Shown here: positions 6,737 to 30,418 of the stretch, in pieces | How the letters are laid out: the number at the start of each line of letters is the position of its first letter | How positions within the stretch are numbered: position 1 is the first letter of the stretch | DNA from: Chloroflexota bacterium | GTDB lineage: Bacteria; Chloroflexota; Dormibacteria; CF-121 | Reading direction: 5' to 3' | Assembly: GCA_005880615.1 (NCBI GenBank) | Contig: VBID01000130.1 | Coordinates: 1-36,604, forward strand | DNA length: 36,604 nt | Translations under genes and position numbers: made by a program | The notes under the pieces: model-generated | The model's input: only the letters and a program-made list of their open reading frames with translations | Database searches by the model: none | Told to the model about the DNA's origin: nothing

Positions 6737-9316
6737 ATGGAGATGGCCAGTCGGTACGATCCCAAGAGCGTCGAAAGCCGCTGGTACCAGACATGGGACG
6801 AGCGCGGCTACTTCAAGCCGCGGCCCAGCCGGACCGGCAAGACCTTCGCCGTCTCCATGCCGCCGCCCAACATCACGGGCGAGCTGCACATGGGGCATGC
6901 CATGTACACGCTGCAGGACCTGGTCATCCGCTGGCACCGCATGCTGGGTGACGAGTCGCTATGGGTGCCGGGCACCGATCATGCCGCCATCGCCACCCAG
7001 AACGTGATCGAAAAACAACTGGCCCGGGAGGGGACGTCCAAGGAACAGATCGGACGAGAGGCGTTTGACCGGCGCGTCCAGGAGTGGTACGCGAAGACCG
7101 GCGACACCATCCTGCGGCAAATGCGCCACCTGGGCTTCTCCGCCGACTGGAGCCGCATCCGGTTCACCATGGACCCGGACTACGTGGCGGCCATCCGGCG
7201 GGTCTTCGTCAACCTCTGGAAGGAGGGGCTCATCTACCGGGGGCCGCGGATCGTCAACTGGTGCCCCCGAGACTTGAGCTCGATTTCTGACCTGGAAGTC
7301 GAGTACGAGGAAGCCGATGATTTCCTCTACTTTCTGCGCTACCCGATCGAGGGCGGCGGGTCGATCTCCGTGGCGACCGCCCGGCCCGAAACGATGGTGG
7401 GGGACACCGGCGTCGCGGTCCATCCCGATGATCCGCGCTACCGCTCGCTGGTGGGCCGGACCGTGGTGCTCCCCATCGTGCACCGGCGGGTGCCCATCGT
7501 GGCCGATGCCGCGGTGGAGCGGGAGTTCGGGACCGGGGCGGTGAAGGTCACGCCCGGCCACGACGCCACCGACTTCGAGATCGGGGAACGGCAGCGCCTG
7601 GAGATCCGCAACATCCTGCATCCCGATGGCCGGATGAAGATCCCGGAAGTGCCGGCCCTCGATGGGTTGCCGCTGACCGAGGCGCGGGCGCGGATCGTGG
7701 AGATGCTGCGGGCCGAGGGGGCGCTGGAGAAGATCGATCCGTACCATCACTCGGTCGGGCATTGCGATCGCTGTGGGGCGGTCATCGAGCCGCTGGTGTC
7801 CGACCAGTGGTGGGTGAAGATGAAGCCGCTGGCCGGCCCGGCCATCGCGGTGGCGGACGGGGGCGAGATCGGCTTCCATCCCGAGCGCTGGAAAGAGCAG
7901 TACCTGCGCTGGATGCGCAACATCCGCGACTGGAACATTTCTCGCCAGATCTGGCTCGGTCACCGGATCCCGGTGTGGACTTGTGCCAACGGACATCAGC
8001 TCGCCTACCTCACCGATCCCACGGCGTGCAGCCAGTGCGGGGATCGCCAGCTCACCCAGGACCCCGACGTACTCGATACCTGGTTCTCCTCGGCCCTGTG
8101 GCCATTCGTGACCCTCGGCTGGCCGAAAGGCACCGACGACCTGCGCCGCTACTACCCGACCCAGGTGCTCGACACCGGTCGGGACATCCTCTACCTGTGG
8201 GTGGCGCGGATGATCTTCATGAGCCTGCACTTCACCAGCAAGATCCCCTTCTCGGAGGTCCTGATCCACGGCAACGTGCTCGACGGCGAGGGGCGGCGGA
8301 TGAGCAAGTCCCTGGGCAACGGGGTCGACCCGCTGGTGATGATCGACCGCTACGGGGCCGATGCCACCCGTGCCTGGTGCGTCTACAACGGGACCACCGG
8401 CCAAGATATCCGGTTCTTCGAAGACAAGATCAAGGGGTACCAGTTCTTCGCCAACAAGCTCTGGAACGCCGCCCGACTCGTGCTCCTAAAGCTTCCCCCC
8501 GCGCCGCTACCCGCGCTGGAGGTCGCCCGGCTGGAGCCGGCGGACCGATGGATCCTGGGCCGGCTGTCCCAGCTCACCGCACAGGTGACGCGCGCCTTTC
8601 AGCAGTTCGAATTCGGCCCGGCCGTGCAGGGGATCTATGACTTCATCTGGCACGAGTTCGCAGACGATTACCTGGAGTTGATCAAGGCCCGGTCCGACGC
8701 CATGGTGCTGTCGGTCGCGGTGCGGGTGCTGGAGCAGACGCTCAGGCTGCTGCACCCCATCATGCCGTTCATTACCGAAGAGCTGTGGCAGCGGCTGCCG
8801 CACCAGGGGGAGACCATCATGTACGGGCCCTGGCCGGAACCCGAGCCCGCGCTCGAGGACGAGGGGGTGTTGGCGGAGATGGCGCACCTGCTCGACGTGG
8901 TGCAGAAAATCCGCAACCTGCGCCAGGAGTCGGCCGCCGGCGTGGGCCGCGCCCGGGCCAGCCTGACGTCAACGCATCCCCTGCTGGGCCAGCCGGTCGG
9001 CCAGCGCTACGTTGCGACTCTGGCGCAGCTCGACCTGGATGGCACCGGGACCCTCAAGGCGGATCGGCGGATCGTGGTGGGCGAGACCGAGGTGGTGATT
9101 GAACTGCCCCACGCGACCGGGCCGCAGGAACGCGCGCGGCTCAGCCGCGAGCTGGAGGTCAAGGAACGAGAGATCGACGCGCTCCGGCAGAAGCTACAAA
9201 ACCCCGGCTTCACCAGCAAGGCGCCCAAGGACGTCATCGAGAAAGAGCGGGCCCGCCTGGCGCGAGCCGAAGCGGCCGCCGAGCGGCTCCGCCGACTCCT
9301 GGATGAGTTAAGGTAA
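6737..9316 (+). CDS. valS: Valyl-tRNA synthetase
   Basis: PPPNITGELHMGHAM (HIGH), MSKSLGNG (KMSKS), DWNISRQIWLGHRIPVW, C-terminal coiled coil. Start taken at MEMASRYDPKSVE. Confidence 0.95.
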   Translation: MEMASRYDPKSVESRWYQTWDERGYFKPRPSRTGKTFAVSMPPPNITGELHMGHAMYTLQDLVIRWHRMLGDESLWVPGTDHAAIATQNVIEKQLAREGTSKEQIGREAFDRRVQEWYAKTGDTILRQMRHLGFSADWSRIRFTMDPDYVAAIRRVFVNLWKEGLIYRGPRIVNWCPRDLSSISDLEVEYEEADDFLYFLRYPIEGGGSISVATARPETMVGDTGVAVHPDDPRYRSLVGRTVVLPIVHRRVPIVADAAVEREFGTGAVKVTPGHDATDFEIGERQRLEIRNILHPDGRMKIPEVPALDGLPLTEARARIVEMLRAEGALEKIDPYHHSVGHCDRCGAVIEPLVSDQWWVKMKPLAGPAIAVADGGEIGFHPERWKEQYLRWMRNIRDWNISRQIWLGHRIPVWTCANGHQLAYLTDPTACSQCGDRQLTQDPDVLDTWFSSALWPFVTLGWPKGTDDLRRYYPTQVLDTGRDILYLWVARMIFMSLHFTSKIPFSEVLIHGNVLDGEGRRMSKSLGNGVDPLVMIDRYGADATRAWCVYNGTTGQDIRFFEDKIKGYQFFANKLWNAARLVLLKLPPAPLPALEVARLEPADRWILGRLSQLTAQVTRAFQQFEFGPAVQGIYDFIWHEFADDYLELIKARSDAMVLSVAVRVLEQTLRLLHPIMPFITEELWQRLPHQGETIMYGPWPEPEPALEDEGVLAEMAHLLDVVQKIRNLRQESAAGVGRARASLTSTHPLLGQPVGQRYVATLAQLDLDGTGTLKADRRIVVGETEVVIELPHATGPQERARLSRELEVKEREIDALRQKLQNPGFTSKAPKDVIEKERARLARAEAAAERLRRLLDELR

Positions 9317-19488: not shown

Positions 19489-21186
19489 ATGGCGACAGCA
19501 CCCCCCAGAACCTCCGGATTGCCCCACCTGAGCGTGGAAGATGTCTGGCGGGGCGCCCTACCGGAGGGCACCGAGCTGGTCGCCGGCAGCGCGGGGGTGC
19601 AGCGCGAGGCCGTCTGGTGCAGCTCCCTCAAGGCTCGGGCTCCCGCCTTCGAGCCCTTGCGAGGCGGGGAGCTGGTGCTGGTCGACACCAGCCTGCTCAC
19701 GCTGGTCGATCCGCGATTGACCCTGGTCCGGTTGCTGGACGCCCTGGCAGCCCAGGGCGTGGCGGGCCTGGGCCTGTCTGGCGTCGCGACCAGCGAGGCC
19801 CGGCAGCGGGCCGACGCCCTCGGGCTTCCTTTGTTGGTGCTGCCCCCGGGACATGTGGTCGAGGAGGTCGCCGACCGGGTCCTGCGCTTTATGGTCGAGC
19901 GACGGTCGGAGCTGCACGAACGGGCGCAGGACTTGCACCGGCAGCTCAGCGAGCTGGCCTTTGCCGGCCGGGGGCTGGCGGCGGTGCTGCGCCGCCTCAC
20001 CGAGCTGATCGAGGCTCCAGTCGTCCTGGAGCACGGCGGAACTATCGAGTACGTGGCCGCCGGCCGGGACCGCACCCTGCCGGAGGCCATCCGGCAGGCC
20101 ATTGCCGCGGAGCGGCCGGACCTGGAAGCCCAGCTCCGGGAGGTGCCGCTGAGTGCCTTCGACCCGCCCGTGACCGCCCGCCCCCTTCCCGGAGGGACGA
20201 GCCGCCTGGTTGCTCCCATCCTGGTGCAGGGGACAATCGCCGGCTTTCTCTCGATCCTGGGGCAGGACGGCGAGCTGTCCGAGCTACACCGGCTGGCCGT
20301 GGGGCGAGCGGCCAGCGCCTGCGCCATCGAGCTGGTGCGAACGCACGCCGCCCGCGATGCCCGCGACGAGCTGGAAGAGGAGGTGCTCGATGTGCTGGCC
20401 GGCGGACGGCCCGGGTCCATGGCGGCGGCCACCGAGCGCGCGCGGCGCAAGGGGGTCGACCTGAACAGTCCCTACGTCGTGTACGCGGCGGGGTCAGCGG
20501 CGCCCGGACAGGCGGCGGCCATCCGGGGGGCGTGGGATCGAAGCCTGGCCAGCCGGCGGTTGGCCGCGCTGGTTCGGGAACGGGGCAGCGTGGTGATTGC
20601 CCTGGTTGCCCTGGGCCGCCGGGCCGCCGACCCCAGCGGGCTGGCCCATGATCTGCAGCGGGCCGCGCAGGGCGGGAGCGCCGCCGAGATTGCGGTGGGG
20701 CACGGGCGCGTCCGCCAGAGCCCGGCCGACGTCAGTGCCGCCGTGCGGGAAGCCGAGCAAGCCCTCAGCCTTGGCCGCCGGCTCTTCGGTGCGGGCGCCG
20801 TGGTGCCGTTTCGTAACCTCGGCCTCTATCGGCTGCTGGCCGGACTCGAGCCGTCGGCACCGCTGCGCGAGTACCACGACGAGATGCTGAGCGAGCTGAC
20901 CCGGCGGGATCGGGGCGGCGTGCTCCTGCTCACCCTACGGGCTTACCTGGCCTGCAACGGCAGCCCGACCGACGCGGCGGAACGCTTGCATCTCCACCGA
21001 AACACGGTCCTCTACCGGCTGGGGAGGATTGAGGAGATCGCGGGCCTGGATCTGCGCGACCCCGAAGTGCGTCTCAGCCTGCACCTGGCCCTCAAGATCG
21101 AGGACGTCCTGACGACGGGATCAGCCGCTATTCCAGCCGAGCGCGCAGCGACGCCGGAAGCTCCGGGAGGTAAGGCCCGACCCTGA
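19489..21186 (+). CDS. PucR/CdaR-family transcriptional regulator
   Basis: N-terminal PucR-type domain; C-terminal LLLTLRAYLACNGSPTDAAERLHLHRNTVLYRLGRIEEIAGLDLRDPEVRLSLHLALKI HTH. The ORF-track ATG at 19447 overlaps a GATAAT -10-like element, so 19489 is proposed; 19447 remains possible. Confidence 0.85.
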   Translation: MATAPPRTSGLPHLSVEDVWRGALPEGTELVAGSAGVQREAVWCSSLKARAPAFEPLRGGELVLVDTSLLTLVDPRLTLVRLLDALAAQGVAGLGLSGVATSEARQRADALGLPLLVLPPGHVVEEVADRVLRFMVERRSELHERAQDLHRQLSELAFAGRGLAAVLRRLTELIEAPVVLEHGGTIEYVAAGRDRTLPEAIRQAIAAERPDLEAQLREVPLSAFDPPVTARPLPGGTSRLVAPILVQGTIAGFLSILGQDGELSELHRLAVGRAASACAIELVRTHAARDARDELEEEVLDVLAGGRPGSMAAATERARRKGVDLNSPYVVYAAGSAAPGQAAAIRGAWDRSLASRRLAALVRERGSVVIALVALGRRAADPSGLAHDLQRAAQGGSAAEIAVGHGRVRQSPADVSAAVREAEQALSLGRRLFGAGAVVPFRNLGLYRLLAGLEPSAPLREYHDEMLSELTRRDRGGVLLLTLRAYLACNGSPTDAAERLHLHRNTVLYRLGRIEEIAGLDLRDPEVRLSLHLALKIEDVLTTGSAAIPAERAATPEAPGGKARP

Positions 21187-21883
21187 CGCTGGGCTGGTCC
21201 GCGACCCCCAGGGCTGCCAGCACGGCCTGGGCAATGGCGGCGTGACCGGCCGCGCTGGGATGGAACCAGTCGGCCCGGTTGGGCCCACGGACGCTGGGGC
21301 CGCCGTCCTGCGCGTGAAAATCGGCGGTGGCATAGAAGCCGTCCAGGCTGACGAAGGTGCCGCCATGGCGCAGACAGCTGTCCTGGATGATGGCTCGGAT
21401 GGCCGGGCTGGGGAGCCAGCTATCGATGCAGACCACGCGGGTGGACTGGCTGGTCACACCGATCATGATGGCCTCGTACTGTTGGGCGACGGTATCCAGC
21501 GGCGTGGAGAACCCGACGTCGTTGGTTCCCAGCTCGATGGTGACCAGGCGGGGATGGGCCGCCAGCACGTCGGGCACCTGCGCCGCCCCCCATGCCACGC
21601 GGGTTCCGCTGTGCGCCACCAGGGTCAGATTCATGGCCAGGGTGCGCGCGATGACAGCGGGGAAGATTTGGCCGAGGGCCGGCGCGTCGTAACCCACGCT
21701 GATGCTGTCACCCAGCGCGACATACGTCTGACCGCGCAGGTCTTCGGCTAGCGACAGCTGGGTCGCCTCCAGCGAGCCCGTGACCGCGGTCAGCTGCGCC
21801 GAGCTGGCTGCCTCGGTCTGCGTCACCGCCATCAGGGCCGCCACCAGCCCCGGTACGACCCGGATCGCTGCGGGAAATCGAAT
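21128..21883 (-). CDS. Secreted SGNH/GDSL-family hydrolase
   Basis: VALGDSISVGYDAP (block I), ELGTNDVGF (block III), ADWFHPSAAGHAAIAQAV (block V). Start proposed at ATT 21883 with SD AAGGAGG, giving the signal peptide (I/M)RFPAAIRVVPGLVAALMAV. Confidence 0.82.
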   Translation of the reverse strand: MRFPAAIRVVPGLVAALMAVTQTEAASSAQLTAVTGSLEATQLSLAEDLRGQTYVALGDSISVGYDAPALGQIFPAVIARTLAMNLTLVAHSGTRVAWGAAQVPDVLAAHPRLVTIELGTNDVGFSTPLDTVAQQYEAIMIGVTSQSTRVVCIDSWLPSPAIRAIIQDSCLRHGGTFVSLDGFYATADFHAQDGGPSVRGPNRADWFHPSAAGHAAIAQAVLAALGVADQPSVRVGPYLPELPASLRARLE

Positions 21884-21943: not shown

Positions 21944-23029
21944 CTACGCCAGGCCGGCTTCGAAGGTGGTCGCCATGTCCCCCAGCGCGCGCACGGCCCA
22001 GTTGGGTCGTTCGGTCATCGCGAACAGGCTGAGGCGGGCTTCGGCCAGGTGCTCGGAAGCCTGCCGGCGGCAGTAGGCGTGGGCGTTGGCCTGCGCCAGC
22101 ACAGTGCGCGCCACCTCCATCTCGGAGGGCGTGAAGCTGGCCCGCGTCAGCAGTCCGCGCAGCTGGCGCCGACCGGCGGCGGGGCCGGCCTTCAGAGCCA
22201 CCAGCGTGGGCAACGTCTTCTTGCCATTGCGCAGGTCGCTGCCCTCGGGCTTTCCGGTCTGGGCCGATGAGCCCCAGATGCCCTGGATGTCATCGATGAT
22301 TTGAAAGGCCATCCCCAGGTGGCGGCCGAAGTCGGCGGCGCGCTCGGAGGCCGCTTCGCCGGCACCCGCCGCCAGTGCCCCCAGGCGGGTGGCACAGGCG
22401 AACAGGCCGGCGGTCTTTAGCTCGATCATCTGCAGATACTCGTCCACCGAGACATCGACCCGCTGCTCGAACTCCAGGTCCATGACCTGGCCCCGGCACA
22501 GCCGCAGTGTGGCTTCCGACACCACCCGCAGGGCGGGCGCCAGCCGCTCCAGGTGGCGGGGCGGCATCAGCTCGGCGATGGCTTTGGGGACCAGGGCCTG
22601 CAGGGCCGCTCCGGCGTTGATCGCCTGGGGAGCGCCCCAAACTCTCCACACGGCGGCCCGCCCCCGCCGCAGCTCGTCGCCGTCCTGGATGTCGTCGAAG
22701 ACCAGGGAGAAGTTGTGGGCCAGCTCGACAGCGACCGCCGCCCAGATGGCGTCGGCGTAGCGGCGGCCGAAGGCCTCGCAGGTGAGGAGCGCCAGGTTGG
22801 CCCGCACCCGTTTCCCCGGACGCGCCCCCGCCCCGCGCAGCCCGAGGTGGTACTGCACCATCTCGGTGAGCAACGAGGACTCGGTGGACCCGACGATTTG
22901 GGAAAAGCGGGTGAGCTCCCGGTCGAGGGCGCCATTCATGGCCTCCAACCGGGCGGAACGGCTGGCAAAGGGTTTGCCCGTGTCGCCCGACGAGCCGGCG
23001 AGCCGTCTGCTGGGCGGCCGGGCCCTCAT
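21944..23029 (-). CDS. Polyprenyl (probably geranylgeranyl) diphosphate synthase
   Basis: First aspartate-rich motif LVFDDIQDGDELRRG; second FQIIDDIQGIWG; GKRVRANLALLTCEAFG. Phe at -5 from the first motif is compatible with archaeal-type GGPP synthases. Confidence 0.9.
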   Translation of the reverse strand: MRARPPSRRLAGSSGDTGKPFASRSARLEAMNGALDRELTRFSQIVGSTESSLLTEMVQYHLGLRGAGARPGKRVRANLALLTCEAFGRRYADAIWAAVAVELAHNFSLVFDDIQDGDELRRGRAAVWRVWGAPQAINAGAALQALVPKAIAELMPPRHLERLAPALRVVSEATLRLCRGQVMDLEFEQRVDVSVDEYLQMIELKTAGLFACATRLGALAAGAGEAASERAADFGRHLGMAFQIIDDIQGIWGSSAQTGKPEGSDLRNGKKTLPTLVALKAGPAAGRRQLRGLLTRASFTPSEMEVARTVLAQANAHAYCRRQASEHLAEARLSLFAMTERPNWAVRALGDMATTFEAGLA

Positions 23030-24075
23030 CGCGACTCGATCAGCCGGTCCAGCGTCAGGGCGTCGAGAGACCCCGCGCCCGAACAGAACATGGCGACTCG
23101 CAGCTGCCAGCCAAAGCCATCCAGCAGGCGGCGCGCCGGTTCCTCACCCTGGGCCGCGGCCGCCAGCACGGCGTGGGCAAACCCCACCAGGCGAGCGCCC
23201 ATGGCGAGCGCCTTGGCAGCGTCCAGGCCGTTCTTGATGCCGCCGCTGGCGATGATGGGGGTTGCCGGCGCGGCTGCCTTCGCCTGCAGGACCGCCTCGG
23301 CGGTGGGAATGCCCCACTCGGAGAACGCCAGGGCCAGCTCGACCTCGTCGGCGCTGTCCCGGCGGAACGCCTCCACTCGGGCAAAGCTGGTCCCCCCGGC
23401 GCCCGCCACATCAATGGCGGCCACCCCGGCCTCGGCCAGCTGCCGGGCGATGGGGCCAGAGATGCCGCTGCCGACCTCCTTCACAATGACGGGTACCGGC
23501 AGGGCGCGGGCGATCAGGCCGATCTTCTCCAGGAGCCCCCGAAAGTTGTGATCACCTTCCTGCTGCAATGCCTCCTGGAGCGGGTTCAAGTGCAGGACCA
23601 GGGCGTCGGCGCCGATCATCTCCACCGCCTCCAGGCACTGGTCGATCCCGACGCCGTAGTTGAGCTGCACGGCGCCCAGGTTGGCCAGCAGCAGGATGTC
23701 GGGGGCGACGCTGCGCACCTGGTAGGTGGACCGCAGGTCCTTGTGGGTCAGCCCCGCCCGTTGGGACCCGACCCCGAAAGCCAGGCCCATGGTCTGAGCG
23801 ACCAGCGCCAGCCGGCGGTTGATGTCCCCAGCGGCGTGAGCCCCGCCGGTCATGCTGGAGAGCAGGAAGGGCAGTCGCAGGCGGCGGCCCAGGAAGGTGG
23901 TGCTGGTATCGATCGTGTCCAGATCGAGCTCCGGCAGGGCCTGGTGGACAAAGCTCCACCGCTCGAAGCCGGCGCTGCGGGTGGATTGCACCGACTCCTC
24001 CAGCGACAGGCGCAGGTGTTGCAGCTTGCGCTCGGAAATGCGCGAGACGGGCTTGCCGGTGGCGTCCTGCATCAT
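23026..24075 (-). CDS. fni: Type 2 isopentenyl-diphosphate delta-isomerase (FMN-dependent)
   Basis: [89 protein letters not shown]. Confidence 0.95.
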
Positions 24076-26462
24076 GCGGCGCCTTGCTCCGCAGTCACGG
24101 CATGGTCGTGCTGCTCGTCTTCCGGCGGCCGCTTGCGCATCATCTGGATGAAGTAATCAACGATGATCGGGTCGAATTGTGTGCCCTTGCCCGCTTCCAG
24201 CTGGGCCAGGGCGAACTCCTGGGTGCGCTTCTGGCGGTAGGGCCGAGTGGAGGTCATGGCGTGATAGGCGTCGCACACGGACACGATGCGGGCGTGCAGG
24301 GGGATGTTCTGCCCGGCCAGCCCATCGGGGTAGCCGCTCCCGTCGTACCACTCGTGGTGGTGGAGGACGACGTTCAGGATCTGGCGGAACGCCTTGATGG
24401 GCTGCAGGATGCGCGCTCCCAGCACCGGGTGCATGCGCATGACGAGCTTTTCGTCCTCGTCCAGCTTGCCCTCCTTGAGCAGCACCTTGTCCACCACGCC
24501 GATCTTGCCCACGTCGTGCAGGATGGCCGCCAGGCGGAGCTGGTTGCGGTGCGCCGGGGACAGCTGCAGCATCTCGGCCAGATCCTCCGCCAGCTGGGCG
24601 ACATACTGGGAGTGACCGCTGGTGTAGGGGTCCTTGGCGTCGATGCTGGCGGCCAGCGCGTTGAGCGCCTCCAGCGCCCCTTCGCTGTTGGGCGAGAGGG
24701 TACCCTCGGCCAGTTCTTCCAGGTGCTTGGAGTTGGCGATCTGTCCCAACCGCTTCTCGAGGGTGGCGACCATGCCGGGTCCCACCGTGTCCGCGGTGCT
24801 GAGCTGGGCGACGACCTCGGACAGCACCGAGTCCAGGGCGGCGACGCTTTCCAGCTCGCTGGCGCCGCAGATGCAGTTGCGGCCACGCTTCTTGGCCATG
24901 TACATCGCCAGGTCGGCCCGGTTCAGCAGCTCGTCCCGGGTCCGGGCATCCACCGGGTAGGTGGCCCAGCCGACGCTGGCCGTCAGCGGCGCAAAGATGG
25001 TCTTGGGGTTGTACATGAACACTTTGGAGAGCGTGTCGCAGATCTCCTGCGCCCGGATGGGCGCGGTCTGCAGGTCGACACCTGGGAGGATGGCCACGAA
25101 CTCTTCACCGCCGTATCGGGTGACGACATCCTCCCGCCGCATGGTGGAGGAGATCGTTCGAGCAGCGGCCTTCAGCGCGACGTCGCCGGCCGCGTGGCCG
25201 AAGCTGTCGTTGTAGACCTTGAACCGATCCAGGTCGACCATCATCACGGTGATCGACCCACCTTTCTCCTTAACCTTCTCCATCTCCTCATCGAGACGGG
25301 TGTGGAAGTAGCGGTGGTTGGGCAACCCGGTGACGGAGTCCGTCACCGACAGCCGCTGGGCCTGATCCAACGTGTGGGCGTTGCGCATGGCGATGCCGGC
25401 CCGCTCGGCGAACGTGAGCAGGAGTTCCTGCTCGGTGTCCCGGAGCGGTAGCTCTCGTCCGGCGAAGCCCATCACCAGGTCCGCGATGGCACGCGCGCCA
25501 TGGAACACCGGGACTCGCACCCAGATGCCCGCCGGCAGCGCCTTGTGCTCCACGGTCATGAACACATTCGGGTCCGCGACCGGGATCACCTGCTCACCCG
25601 AGACGGGGTTCAGGCTGAGCCGGGCGGCTGAGAGGTCGGTGCCGGCGTGGGCCTGGGCCAGCTCGGGGCTCCAATCGATGAAGAGCTTGGGCGCCACGGT
25701 GTCGCCCTCGGTCCCCAACAGGGACGGCATCTGCACCTGGAGCAGCACCACGTCTGCCTGCAGCAGGGCTCGCCCCTTCTCGGCCGCCAGCTGGCAGGTC
25801 TGTTCGAACTCGAGGTCGCGGTTCAGCTCCACGGTGACCTGCGAAAGGGCGGCATGGGCGCGCTCCAGCTCTTCTTGCAGGGCGTGCTCGGCCTTGCGGG
25901 CGCGGTCGCCCAGGAAGGCACTGAAGAATCCGGTGAGCCCCACGAAGCCCATCTGGATGACCACGTTGGTAAACCCCGCCACCGGGTCGGCCAGTCCGCC
26001 CGAACGGAAGTTGACGTAGTAGACGACCGCCAGGTAGCTGACAGTGGTCGTGGTCACGGCCATGATGGTCGCCAGGCCGCCGAACCGCACGGCGACCATG
26101 GCCACCACCAGGAAGTAGGCCAGCGAGAAGGGGGAGGTGATGCCCCCGCTGATGGCCACCCCGGCGGTGCAGATCAAGACGTCGCCGACCGATGAGATAT
26201 AGCCGGCGTTCAACCAGCGGGGCCCGCGGGGCACCAGCAGCTGCAGCGCCAGGTTGTAGGCCGCGGTGAACACGACCAGCGCCATCAGCGGGATGGTCTC
26301 GTTCCCCAGCCGGAGGAAGGGCAGCGCCCCCGTGGCGACGATGATGGCCAGCCAGCGGATGAAGACGACGCGACGCTCCATCTCGACGGCGGCCTGGGCA
26401 GCCGTGGAGGACTTGGCCGGGGCCCCGCGCTTGGAGAACGTCAGCTTGAGGGCGCCGCTCAT
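24072..26462 (-). CDS. Membrane GGDEF + HD-GYP bifunctional c-di-GMP turnover protein
   Basis: N-terminal TM helices, GAF-like region, I-site RRED then GGEEF (RREDVVTRYGGEEF), HD-GYP motifs HDVGKIGVVDKVLLKEG, HHHEWYDGSGYPDGL. Confidence 0.92.
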   Translation of the reverse strand: MSGALKLTFSKRGAPAKSSTAAQAAVEMERRVVFIRWLAIIVATGALPFLRLGNETIPLMALVVFTAAYNLALQLLVPRGPRWLNAGYISSVGDVLICTAGVAISGGITSPFSLAYFLVVAMVAVRFGGLATIMAVTTTTVSYLAVVYYVNFRSGGLADPVAGFTNVVIQMGFVGLTGFFSAFLGDRARKAEHALQEELERAHAALSQVTVELNRDLEFEQTCQLAAEKGRALLQADVVLLQVQMPSLLGTEGDTVAPKLFIDWSPELAQAHAGTDLSAARLSLNPVSGEQVIPVADPNVFMTVEHKALPAGIWVRVPVFHGARAIADLVMGFAGRELPLRDTEQELLLTFAERAGIAMRNAHTLDQAQRLSVTDSVTGLPNHRYFHTRLDEEMEKVKEKGGSITVMMVDLDRFKVYNDSFGHAAGDVALKAAARTISSTMRREDVVTRYGGEEFVAILPGVDLQTAPIRAQEICDTLSKVFMYNPKTIFAPLTASVGWATYPVDARTRDELLNRADLAMYMAKKRGRNCICGASELESVAALDSVLSEVVAQLSTADTVGPGMVATLEKRLGQIANSKHLEELAEGTLSPNSEGALEALNALAASIDAKDPYTSGHSQYVAQLAEDLAEMLQLSPAHRNQLRLAAILHDVGKIGVVDKVLLKEGKLDEDEKLVMRMHPVLGARILQPIKAFRQILNVVLHHHEWYDGSGYPDGLAGQNIPLHARIVSVCDAYHAMTSTRPYRQKRTQEFALAQLEAGKGTQFDPIIVDYFIQMMRKRPPEDEQHDHAVTAEQGAA

Positions 26463-26471
26463 TGCGACTCC

Positions 26472-27401
26472 TTAACCCGCCTTCTCCTGGAGCATCCAGG
26501 TCTGGTCGCGCAGGGCCGAACCCGAGCCGTGGGTGGCGAGGGAGTCATAGAAGTCGATGGCGGCGTGAGTGCTGGCCACCAGGCGGCGGAGGAAGTCCTG
26601 CGTCGGGCCGGTGCGGCGCTCGCGGGACACGCCGCGTTCCAGGATCTCCAGCTCCCGCTCCATCACCAGCCGGGCGTCCTTCCGAGGGTTGGCCTGGGAG
26701 GCGCCGTTCAAGGCCTCGGCGGCCAGGTCCAAGGAATTGAACCGGCCGTGGGCGTGCTCGTGCTCGTAGCTGTGCAGGTCGTTGGCGATGCGGACCACCC
26801 GCGAGGCCTGGCAGATGTGCCCGAAGAGCCGGTTCTTGAGCTCCTGCGGCACGTCCTGGTAGGCGAAGGCGAGGATGCTCACCTGGACGATGGGGAGGGC
26901 GATGGTATAGAGGCCGTTGGCCAGATAGGCATCCAGGCTGACCTGCTCCTGGTGCTTCACCCAGTGGTTTTCCTGCAGGAGGGTGAAGATGAACTTCTCC
27001 CAGACCAGGCGGCGCATCGGGGTCCACTCTTCGGACACTTCGTCCTCCGCGAACTGTTCCTCCATCTTTCGGGCGACATTGGCATGGGCCACCGGCATCT
27101 GGCTGAGATCGCGGTTGTGCCAGATGAGGAAGAGCTGGCCGACGCGGCGGTAGTCGACCATGTCCAGCTCGGGGTGCTCTTCCTCGATGTAGTCGTCGAT
27201 GTACTGGGCGTAGGCAATCGTTCGGACCAGCGCCAGCGCCTGGTCAAAGCTGGCCGATGGATGCAGCACCAGGGAGAGCGCGCAAGCCTCGGCCAGGCGC
27301 CAGCCCCGCCGCTCATCCTCCTCGAGGTGCTGGATGATCTTGGTTTCGTCGGTAAAGCGGAGCAGTGCGTCCTTCAGCTTGGTGATACGGCGGTCAAACA
27401 T
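26472..27401 (-). CDS. Class I terpene synthase (terpene cyclase)
   Basis: Aspartate-rich AQYIDDYIEEEHPELD; NSE triad IANDLHSYEHE; length 309 aa; next to a class II cyclase. Confidence 0.87.
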   Translation of the reverse strand: MFDRRITKLKDALLRFTDETKIIQHLEEDERRGWRLAEACALSLVLHPSASFDQALALVRTIAYAQYIDDYIEEEHPELDMVDYRRVGQLFLIWHNRDLSQMPVAHANVARKMEEQFAEDEVSEEWTPMRRLVWEKFIFTLLQENHWVKHQEQVSLDAYLANGLYTIALPIVQVSILAFAYQDVPQELKNRLFGHICQASRVVRIANDLHSYEHEHAHGRFNSLDLAAEALNGASQANPRKDARLVMERELEILERGVSRERRTGPTQDFLRRLVASTHAAIDFYDSLATHGSGSALRDQTWMLQEKAG

Positions 27402-28968
27402 GCGGGTTCGCCCCCTTCAGGAGAGTCCGAGCGGACAAGATGGCCGATTCAACGATGTGGACGGGGGTGTACAGGCCCTTGCCCACCCAGAGCGGGATGC
27501 GTGGCTCGCCGGCCGCCTCCGCCAGGAAGGTCTCCGCCGCGCCCAAGTTCACGCGCAGCCCTTGGCGCTGCGCCGGTGGCACCGCCAGCCACCCCTGCAC
27601 GGCGTAGGCGGTCTCTTCCGCCGTGCCCTGCTCAAACCAACCCCATGACCCGTCCGAGCGTTGGGTTTCGGCGAGCCACTTGAGCGCGGGGAGGCAGAGA
27701 TCGGGTGCCGACGCGGTAAGCGCGAAGACGACGCGGGCGGTGGCATAGAAGGGGGAACTATGCCACTTGTCAACCCAGTGTGCGCCGTCTACGCGCTGAT
27801 CGCGCAGGAACCGAACGACCTTTTGCTCCATGCTGGCGCGGGTGGGGAACGGTTGGCAGGCGGCGAGCGCCTCCAGCACGTGTGCGTTCACGGTTGGCGA
27901 TGGCTCGCGCTCCAGGGGGAAGGTGTGGAAATACTCGATGCCTTCGAACGACCGCAGCGGCCCGGCCACCGGGGACTGACCGTAGCGCTGGAGCACGGTG
28001 AGCGTCATGGCCGTGTCGTCGGCGTCCGGACGCAGTCCTGTCCGGGAGCACCCCACCCCGTCGTCGGTGAGGGTGGAGGCCAGGTAGCGGATGTGCCGGT
28101 CGGCGTCGGGAACGACGATCCCGGCACGAGCCAGGTTGTAGAGCACCCAGGCCCGCTCGAACACCTCAAATGGCGCCACGTCGGGGACGCCGCCCTCGGC
28201 GTCGACGACGCTATCCAGGTAAGCCCAGGCGGCCGGGGCGGCGCCCCCCCGCTCCAGGAAGTACGCGGTCGCGGACGGGGAGTTCCCGAATGATCCGTTC
28301 TCGGAGAGCTGGGCGGCGGCCGCGCCGACGTCCAGCCGGCTCCCCAGGTACTCCAGCGAATGGAGCAGGAGGGTGGGCATCTTGTAGATCAGGGTGGGCG
28401 GGATGTGGCCGAGCTTGGCTTCCCGCTGGGCTGTCACCCCGGCGAACCGGTCGAAGGGCAGCGGCAGTTGGCGGACGCGGCCATCGTCCATCAGGGTGGG
28501 GAGGATTTGCTCAAACCCGACCGGGGTCAGCCCCGTCTGCCAGTCGGCCGTTTTCTCCCAGAGATAGGTAAGCGCCGCCAGCCGAGCGCGGTGCGCGATC
28601 TCCTCGTGCTCGCCGGGCGGCAGCGCGGCCAGGGCCAGCACCGCACTGACCGTGGAGAGCACGCGCTCTTTGGGGATTGGGAGGGTGGTGCCAAAGCTGC
28701 CGTCGGCGTTTTGCGCCCGCAGCAGCCAGCGGAGCGTTGCGGGATAGGCCAGGGCGTCCGGGGCGCCAGGCTTGCGCAGCCGGGCCAGGAAGGCCGTGTC
28801 GTAGGCCACCGCGGACATGGTCCCGGTGCCCAGCACGCGGAGGAGATTGGCGGCCTCCGCCTGAGGCGACGGCGCCGTCTCGGGCGCCGCCGAAGGGTAG
28901 CCAGTCTGCCGAATCGCGTTCAGGTCCGTGTGTGACCCCCTTGTGGCGGGCACATTCCGGGTGCCCAA
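27394..28968 (-). CDS. Class II diterpene cyclase (copalyl/halimadienyl diphosphate synthase-like)
   Basis: DxDD motif RPDADDTAMTLTVLQ; VAYDTAFLARL near the N-terminus; QW-like repeats QNADGSFG and QRSDGSWGWFEQGTAEETAYAVQGW; 524 aa; 8-nt overlap with the class I gene. Confidence 0.9.
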   Translation of the reverse strand: MGTRNVPATRGSHTDLNAIRQTGYPSAAPETAPSPQAEAANLLRVLGTGTMSAVAYDTAFLARLRKPGAPDALAYPATLRWLLRAQNADGSFGTTLPIPKERVLSTVSAVLALAALPPGEHEEIAHRARLAALTYLWEKTADWQTGLTPVGFEQILPTLMDDGRVRQLPLPFDRFAGVTAQREAKLGHIPPTLIYKMPTLLLHSLEYLGSRLDVGAAAAQLSENGSFGNSPSATAYFLERGGAAPAAWAYLDSVVDAEGGVPDVAPFEVFERAWVLYNLARAGIVVPDADRHIRYLASTLTDDGVGCSRTGLRPDADDTAMTLTVLQRYGQSPVAGPLRSFEGIEYFHTFPLEREPSPTVNAHVLEALAACQPFPTRASMEQKVVRFLRDQRVDGAHWVDKWHSSPFYATARVVFALTASAPDLCLPALKWLAETQRSDGSWGWFEQGTAEETAYAVQGWLAVPPAQRQGLRVNLGAAETFLAEAAGEPRIPLWVGKGLYTPVHIVESAILSARTLLKGANPHV

Positions 28969-29158
28969 GCGGAGCCTAGTGGCGGGCCATTGCGACGGAC
29001 GTTGCGGGATCCGGCGTCGGGTGACGGAACCTTACGCGAGGTCACGCTTCCGTCACAACCTGCGGGCCCGTCCGGTGCGCGGCAAGGGGCCCATGGTACC
29101 GGCCGTTTGCTCTTGTGCGACGTCTGCGCGTTTTCATTGGGGGACCAGTCCAAACTTG

Positions 29159-30418
29159 GTGCTGCGACCGCCGGCGCTGATCCGATTTCACTACCAGCTC
29201 GAGCGGCAGGCGTGGCGCATGCTGTCGGTCCATTCCGCCTACACCGCCGCCAACCTGTTCGCCGCCACCTTCCTGTCCATCTTCATCTGGCGAGCGCACC
29301 ACGACCTGGGCCAGGTCTGCCTGTTCAATGCCGTGTACGCGCTCGGCGTCCCGATCGCGTTCCTGGCCAACGGCTGGCTATTCCGGCGCGGCGACGCCGG
29401 AACCTCGATCCGCCGCGGTCTCCTGACGCTGAGCTTCCTCTATGTGCTGGTGCTCTTCCTGGGCAACGCCAGCGCCGGCGCGCTGCTCCTGTTGGGATTG
29501 ATGCGCGGCCTGGGTGAGGGCTGGTACTGGGCCGGCTATCACCTGGTCACCTACGACGCCATCGCCCGCGGAAACCGAGACCGGTACTTCGGTGCCACGG
29601 GCGCCTCAGGCGCCTTCCTGGGTGTGGCCGTGCCGCCGCTGGCCGGGACCATCATCGTCCTGGGTACCCATGGGGGCGGCAGCTACGGCGGCTACCAGGT
29701 CACGTTTGGGGTGGCGGCCGCCACGCTGCTGGCTGCCGCCCTGCTGGCCGGCGGCCTCCAGGCGGGCCGGCGCCAGGGCTTCTCCCTCCGCGGGATGCTA
29801 CAGTTGCCGCACCGAAATCCGGCCTGGTCCTACGTCACCTGGGCCCGGCTGGCCGATGGCTCGACGGGATTCGTGCTGGGGATGGTGGTCAGCATCCTGA
29901 CCTTCGTGACCCTGCGCAACGAGCAGAACGTGGGCGGCTTCAACGCCCTGGTGGGCCTGCTGACCATGGGGCTCAGCCTCGGGTTGGGCATGTGGCTTCC
30001 CGCCCGACACCGAATGCGGTGCGCCCTGCTGGGCGGGAGCCTGCTGGTGGCCTCGACGCTCGTGTATCCCCTCTATCTCTCGGTCGGCGCGCTGGTGCTG
30101 TTCGGGCTGCTCCGGGCGCTGGGTGGTCCGCTGCACGGCAATGCGCTGGCCCCCCTGTGGCTGCAGGTGATCGACCGGGATCCCCAGGCGCAGGAGCTAC
30201 GCTACGAGTACATCGTGTCCCAGGAGCTGACGTTAGGGATCGGCCGGGTGCTCAGTGTGCTGGCCGTTATGGCGCTGGCGGCCCCCATCGACCAGCTCAC
30301 CCTGGCCCGAGTGGCCCTGGTGGTGGCCGGCGCGGCGCCCATTCTGATCTGGGCGGCTTTTGCTAGGATCGGGGCGCCGGTGGCGGTTGCGTCACGCCCC
30401 CTCCAGGTGGCCGCCTGA
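29159..30418 (+). CDS. Major facilitator superfamily-type transporter
   Basis: About 12 hydrophobic segments; LMRGLGEGWYWAGYHLVTYDAIARGNRDRYFGATGASGAFLGVAVPPLAGTIIV. Start trimmed to GTG 29159 (TTG 29156 also possible). Confidence 0.75.
   Translation: MLRPPALIRFHYQLERQAWRMLSVHSAYTAANLFAATFLSIFIWRAHHDLGQVCLFNAVYALGVPIAFLANGWLFRRGDAGTSIRRGLLTLSFLYVLVLFLGNASAGALLLLGLMRGLGEGWYWAGYHLVTYDAIARGNRDRYFGATGASGAFLGVAVPPLAGTIIVLGTHGGGSYGGYQVTFGVAAATLLAAALLAGGLQAGRRQGFSLRGMLQLPHRNPAWSYVTWARLADGSTGFVLGMVVSILTFVTLRNEQNVGGFNALVGLLTMGLSLGLGMWLPARHRMRCALLGGSLLVASTLVYPLYLSVGALVLFGLLRALGGPLHGNALAPLWLQVIDRDPQAQELRYEYIVSQELTLGIGRVLSVLAVMALAAPIDQLTLARVALVVAGAAPILIWAAFARIGAPVAVASRPLQVAA

Follow-up and report, generated by a model that had tools for sequence, protein, structure and literature searches.

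A conserved candidate diterpene operon with a membrane GGDEF/HD-GYP gene in a family of uncultured soil Chloroflexi

Most diterpenoids known from bacteria are secondary metabolites of patchy distribution, or factors in virulence or plant symbiosis. What role might be served by a compact set of terpene genes that encloses a gene for a membrane signalling protein? This question is raised by a locus in the window (the whole stretch of 36,604 nucleotides that was analysed), which derives from one uncultured soil Chloroflexi family represented here by 18 genomes and hereafter called the window family. Its named relatives are Chloroflexi MAGs with depth labels of 20 to 40 cm, whose source we take to be Californian grassland soil.

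Gene content and enzyme identities

The locus consists of five co-directional ORFs on the minus strand, encoding a class II cyclase, a class I terpene synthase, a GGDEF/HD-GYP protein, a type 2 IPP isomerase and a prenyl diphosphate synthase. These genes, their relevant parts and two neighbours are as follows.

28936..28942, minus strand: Shine-Dalgarno-like AAGGGGG, 6 nt before the ACG
28927..28929, minus strand: probable start codon (ACG) of the class II gene; ACG in 18/18 loci
27394..28929, minus strand: class II diterpene cyclase, 511 amino acids if read from the ACG; DADDT at residues 302-306
26472..27401, minus strand: class I (alpha-domain) terpene synthase, 309 amino acids, with DDYIEE and NDLHSYEHE
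24072..26462, minus strand: membrane GGDEF/HD-GYP protein (multi-TM N-terminal input domain, GGDEF, HD-GYP; Pfam)
25818..26390, minus strand: conserved membrane input domain of the GGDEF/HD-GYP protein, about residues 25-215
23026..24075, minus strand: type 2 isopentenyl-diphosphate isomerase (fni/idi-2), TIGR02151
21944..23029, minus strand: trans-prenyl diphosphate synthase, PF00348, with a GGPPS-like first Asp-rich motif
21128..21844, minus strand: GDSL hydrolase, PF13472 at 75 bits, 99 nt downstream of the operon
28928..30418, plus strand: divergent MFS transporter ORF, PF07690 at 32.3 bits, slightly below the cut-off

The class II and class I genes overlap by 8 nt (27394-27401), a 9-nt gap (26463-26471) separates the class I gene from the GGDEF/HD-GYP gene, and 4-nt overlaps join the latter to the isomerase gene (24072-24075) and the isomerase gene to the prenyl synthase gene (23026-23029). 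Re-checking the ORF coordinates thus returned the same five ORFs, order, strand and overlaps as an earlier sequence-only reading of this DNA. Two neighbours that are co-conserved with the operon were missing from that reading, namely the GDSL hydrolase and the divergent MFS transporter. The hydrolase gene keeps its place in the window family wherever the contig extends that far, and is a possible operon member. The MFS gene, whose true start is probably near 29219, is syntenic in those relatives with contigs of sufficient length, and its product is a candidate exporter. As had been remarked before, no P450, methyltransferase or SDR gene is seen at the locus, whether among the ORFs, in the domain search or in the synteny of relatives.

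Among solved class II cyclases, the class II protein matches 6vpt, which we take to be Rv3377c, at 5e-61 over residues 45-520, nearly its full length, and 5bp8 (ent-copalyl diphosphate synthase) at 1e-40. A class II cyclase that the PDB names by domain alone, 7xkx (presumably drimenyl diphosphate synthase), is also a significant match, and similarity to squalene-hopene cyclase (SHC) is confined to a short C-terminal stretch. Because the matches to 6vpt and 5bp8 are nearly full length, the protein sides with genuine cyclases and not with the non-cyclase prenyltransferases that had been raised as the counter-case for its 524-residue version. The DxDD motif is invariant across nine aligned window-family members, in the variants DADD, DSDD and DGDD. 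A tree built from 29 class II cyclases and one SHC (30 proteins) places the window family as sister to family f9 (support 86/86; 38 to 41% identity between their class II proteins), and the Herpetosiphon-type and rhizobial enzymes are more distant than f9, with modest deep supports.

The class I protein scores 60.7 bits against PF19086 (cut-off 23.7), and both metal-binding motifs, DDxxE and NSE, are kept in 13 aligned window-family members. Single-sequence matches in the PDB are weak, and a window-family profile reaches alpha-domain terpene synthases with a best value of 7e-9. AlphaFold models made from thin alignments were poor (pLDDT 55 and 53); that of the class I protein is all-helical, but at pLDDT 55. 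A PHROGs search returned no match for either the class I protein or the sensor input domain.

The isomerase scores 397.9 bits against TIGR02151 (cut-off 281.3), and the prenyl synthase 220 bits against PF00348 (polyprenyl_synt). The latter has DDIQD as its first Asp-rich motif with F at position -5, a GGPPS-like pattern, and GGPP synthase models outscore FPP synthase models on it; the NCBIfam GGPPS models match below their cut-off, and no chain-length model scores above. In synthases encoded in the hopanoid loci of sister family f2, this pattern likewise precedes the first Asp-rich motif, and therefore it does not settle chain length. Trees of the prenyl synthases and the IPP isomerases, built without outgroups, would fit a connection with the copies in the f2 hopanoid loci. 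Most window-family genomes encode only two PF00348 proteins, of which the operon's synthase is one, which makes its exclusive use for a diterpene unlikely. Thus, the synthase described earlier as dedicated does belong to the operon, but its dedication is doubtful, and it probably also feeds housekeeping isoprenoids.

Taken as a prediction from sequence, a two-step class II/class I terpene pathway with its own IPP isomerase and prenyl synthase has good support, which comes from homology, from intact motifs and from synteny throughout the window family. The core claim of a diterpene pathway is right in this sense, with C20 specificity and the product standing as predictions.

The start of the class II gene

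The class II gene had been read from a TTG at 28968, yielding 524 amino acids, but this TTG is not conserved in relatives. Comparison of 18 loci (the window and 17 relatives) shows that the frame opens with ACG GA(A/C) in every case, and that A(1-4)GGGGG precedes the ACG in 18 of 18 with a spacer of 5-8 nt. Among the closest 15 loci, spacer length is unequal in 78 of 105 pairs, 72 of which differ by a number not divisible by three. After the ACG, all indels within the first 46 codons preserve the frame (36/36), and substitutions by codon position number 566/807/1833, the third position being the most variable. No conserved ATG, GTG or TTG lies between the ACG and the catalytic part in the 18 loci. 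On the simplest reading, the gene appears to start at the ACG (28927-28929) and to encode 511 amino acids. A literature search of partial coverage, judged by titles and hence weak evidence, returned no case of a natural bacterial ACG start. If confirmed, this conserved start would be a rare natural bacterial example.

Conservation, signalling linkage and proposed function

All 18 window-family genomes carry the class II gene, at 56-61% identity; this count does not amount to 18 independent events because the family shares its ancestry. A class I gene adjoins it in 16 genomes, and in the other two the contig ends inside the class II gene; each genome has exactly one PF19086 protein. Where contigs suffice, the gene order is kept as PucR regulator, GDSL hydrolase, prenyl synthase, isomerase, GGDEF/HD-GYP, class I, class II, MFS, FtsH and penicillin-binding protein. 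None of the 110 genomes from elsewhere in the class has the class II/class I pair; they yield just short SHC-like matches. Across the phylum, 41 of 399 sampled genomes have a class II cyclase, eight of these 41 being window-family members. The universal presence of the operon in the window family suggests a core lipid or signal molecule, not an optional secondary metabolite. Three window-family MAGs, G007 (locus L036), G008 (L037) and G012 (L035), have a broken class II frame, which may reflect either assembly error or real decay.

Neither squalene/phytoene synthases (SQS_PSY, 0/18) nor an SHC above the cut-off (0/18) were found in window-family genomes, and no squalene, hopanoid or carotenoid synthesis genes were detected in the family. 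The diterpene operon therefore appears to be its only cyclic-terpenoid pathway found. Sister families have both SQS_PSY and SHC in at least 25 genomes of f2 and 17 of f4. Like the window operon, the f2 hopanoid locus encodes a type 2 IPP isomerase, together with a prenyl synthase related to that of the window, but there these lie beside two SQS_PSY genes and SHC, none of which occurs in the window family; HpnE and HpnH were recognised at the f2 locus by eye only. In-place replacement of hopanoid genes was considered and rejected: the flanks of the f2 hopanoid loci are unlike those of the window locus and so provide no positional evidence for it.

The GGDEF/HD-GYP protein scores 150.5 bits for GGDEF and 131.4 bits for HD_5, and the RxxD-GGEEF, HDVGK and HHEWYDGSGYP signatures are intact in the window-family proteins. 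Hydropathy predicts an N-terminal multi-TM domain, and this input domain matched no Pfam family. Linkage to signalling genes was surveyed at 20 class II loci from 11 other Chloroflexota families (12 counting the window family). At 17 of these 20 loci, the cyclase has a signalling gene at most three genes away within a co-directional run; two of the remaining loci have one barely beyond that range, and one lies at a contig end. For comparison, the ORFs outside such runs include 5 signalling genes among 155. The outputs near class II cyclases differ, and include histidine kinase plus receiver, receiver-GAF-HD-GYP, PAS-GGDEF-EAL and STAS proteins.

An input-domain model was built from the window family alone, as a model including linked members was rejected as circular. 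Its best match adjoins the class II gene in 6 of 6 genomes searched that bear class I and class II genes (G132, G143, G237, G244, G272 and G314), where the outputs identified are histidine kinases, not GGDEF/HD-GYP. These genomes belong to four other families, and the result thus represents about four independent cases. Paralogues of the domain distant from the cyclase occur in f55, and remote relatives are widespread. A single input domain common to all families was rejected, because at least two types without detectable similarity exist: one in f1, f5, f9, f41 and f55, the other shared by f8 and f14 and matched weakly in f23 (25.8 and 18.7 bits). The partner enzyme in f8 and f23 is Rv3378c-like. 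An input that stays constant while the output changes, beside synthesis genes, would be expected of a ligand receptor. On a plasmid of Micromonospora zamorensis (NZ_CP107937.1; L237:5004-11500), class I and class II genes are followed by a conservon-like set of genes (sensor kinase, roadblock, DUF742 and GTPase), and signalling linkage is thus found beyond Chloroflexota too.

We consider it reasonably probable that this is a core operon making a labdane-related (or halimane- or clerodane-type) diterpene in every known window-family member, tied to c-di-GMP via the sensor. The observations behind this proposal are the gene identities, motifs, synteny, family-wide conservation, cross-family sensor linkage and the absence of squalene and hopanoid genes. 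In the proposed sequence of events, the type 2 isomerase would balance IPP and DMAPP, and the prenyl diphosphate synthase would condense them, with GGPP as the most likely product. By protonating GGPP, the class II cyclase would form a bicyclic diphosphate, which the class I enzyme would ionise, presumably yielding a simple alcohol or a hydrocarbon. The membrane GGDEF/HD-GYP protein could then couple the diterpenoid, or a membrane state set by it, to cyclic-di-GMP; we infer both the diterpenoid as ligand and the c-di-GMP output.

Other explanations bear on different parts of this proposal. The GGDEF/HD-GYP gene might be a passenger unrelated in function to the terpene genes, as the sequence-only reading had treated it, given that signalling genes are frequent in Chloroflexota and that many related input domains occur elsewhere. 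However, the input-domain model picks the cyclase's neighbour in all six genomes, the linkage at 17 of 20 loci compares with 5 of 155 background ORFs and is general for the phylum's class II cyclases, and the gene's position inside the operon is held across the window family, and we find a passenger unlikely. A change of chain length would leave the linkage intact: the prenyl synthase could supply FPP, from which the class II enzyme would make a drimane-type sesquiterpene. The 7xkx match is in keeping with this C15 route, as is the related f2 hopanoid-locus synthase, from which FPP is required and whose first Asp-rich motif follows an identical pattern. Yet the class II protein scores better against 6vpt and 5bp8, and the GGPP synthase models beat the FPP synthase models on the operon's synthase, such that we regard this route as improbable.

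As for the purpose of the product, it might be a structural membrane lipid that took over ordering after squalene and hopanoid loss, with the sensor monitoring membrane state. This reading draws on the absence of SQS_PSY and SHC from a family whose sisters f2 and f4 have both, on the isomerase and related prenyl synthase that form part of the f2 hopanoid locus, and on universal conservation in the absence of tailoring enzymes. But the correlation has n = 1, because loss and gain form one evolutionary event; f3 mostly lacks SHC and yet has no diterpene pair; and a C20 hydrocarbon or alcohol would be a short molecule to act in place of a hopanoid. A substitute for hopanoids, although a main rival to our reading, therefore seems to us rather doubtful. 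We are similarly sceptical that an ordinary secondary-metabolite operon makes a secreted compound for defence or communication, with the divergent MFS protein as its exporter. In other organisms, class II/class I pairs do yield secondary metabolites (PMC11469919; PMC5704754), no cluster type is more frequent in comparable grassland soils than terpene clusters (PMC7298704), and the MFS gene is syntenic. Set against this, the operon occupies one fixed locus in 18 of 18 genomes, unlike patchy secondary metabolism, and the locus has no P450, methyltransferase or SDR.

Our preferred reading is a conserved diterpenoid that is probably signal-linked. A broader and only tentative proposal, which we hold to be somewhat unlikely as a whole, is that Chloroflexota class II cyclases form the synthesis arm of diterpenoid signalling systems, in which the receptor input would track the type of partner synthase and the output would be swapped among histidine kinase, STAS and GGDEF/HD-GYP; in the window family such a system would be core, control c-di-GMP and provide the sole route to cyclic terpenoids. 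To our knowledge no diterpenoid receptor has been described, and searches of the literature returned none; the phylum-wide linkage offers a concrete candidate. With a whole family that keeps a diterpene operon at a fixed locus, and in which no squalene, hopanoid or carotenoid genes were detected, the question of why bacteria make cyclic terpenoids becomes testable.

Comparison with known systems

Within the phylum, the O-methylkolavelool locus of Herpetosiphon aurantiacus (Haur_2145-2147) likewise has a class II cyclase in an operon. However, this cyclase is only 28.7% identical to the window protein, its partner is Rv3378c-like and not an alpha-domain class I enzyme, and neither an IPP isomerase nor a prenyl synthase, both present in the window operon, was recognised there. 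In genome G207, which we take to be H. aurantiacus, histidine kinase and receiver genes lie immediately upstream of the class II cyclase.

The earlier parallel with the Rv3377c/Rv3378c tuberculosinyl system holds for one half of the pair. The closest solved relative of the class II protein is 6vpt, but Rv3378c is another protein type from the window's PF19086 partner, whose PDB matches are alpha-domain terpene synthases; moreover, no sensor gene has been described in that system, whereas the window operon has one. A pair like Rv3377c/Rv3378c does occur in Chloroflexota at f8 loci L219, L221-L225 and L228, followed by a histidine kinase gene and, in most, by a receiver gene. The L219 pair (6767-9166) matches Rv3378c structures at 4e-77 (3wqk/3wqm) and 6vpt at 6.5e-148. 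At L231 (2950-3627), a HAD hydrolase gene adjoins genes for a class II cyclase and a STAS protein, which recalls Rv3376 beside Rv3377c/Rv3378c. An orthologue search outside Mycobacteria was reported as unsuccessful (PMC11476799), and the f8 pair may bear on the origin of the Rv3377c/Rv3378c locus.

The rhizobial gibberellin operon (e.g. pNGR234a) shares with the window operon neighbouring class II (CPS) and class I (KS) genes and a prenyl synthase, and its CPS is 33% identical to the window class II protein. It differs in having P450, ferredoxin and SDR genes, whereas the neighbours in the window are signalling, isomerase, hydrolase and MFS genes. Finally, bacterial fused or paired diterpene cyclases and synthases (PMC11469919) have the same class II DxDD and class I DDxxD/NSE chemistry; the window genes differ in being separate and in being accompanied by an IPP isomerase and a sensor.
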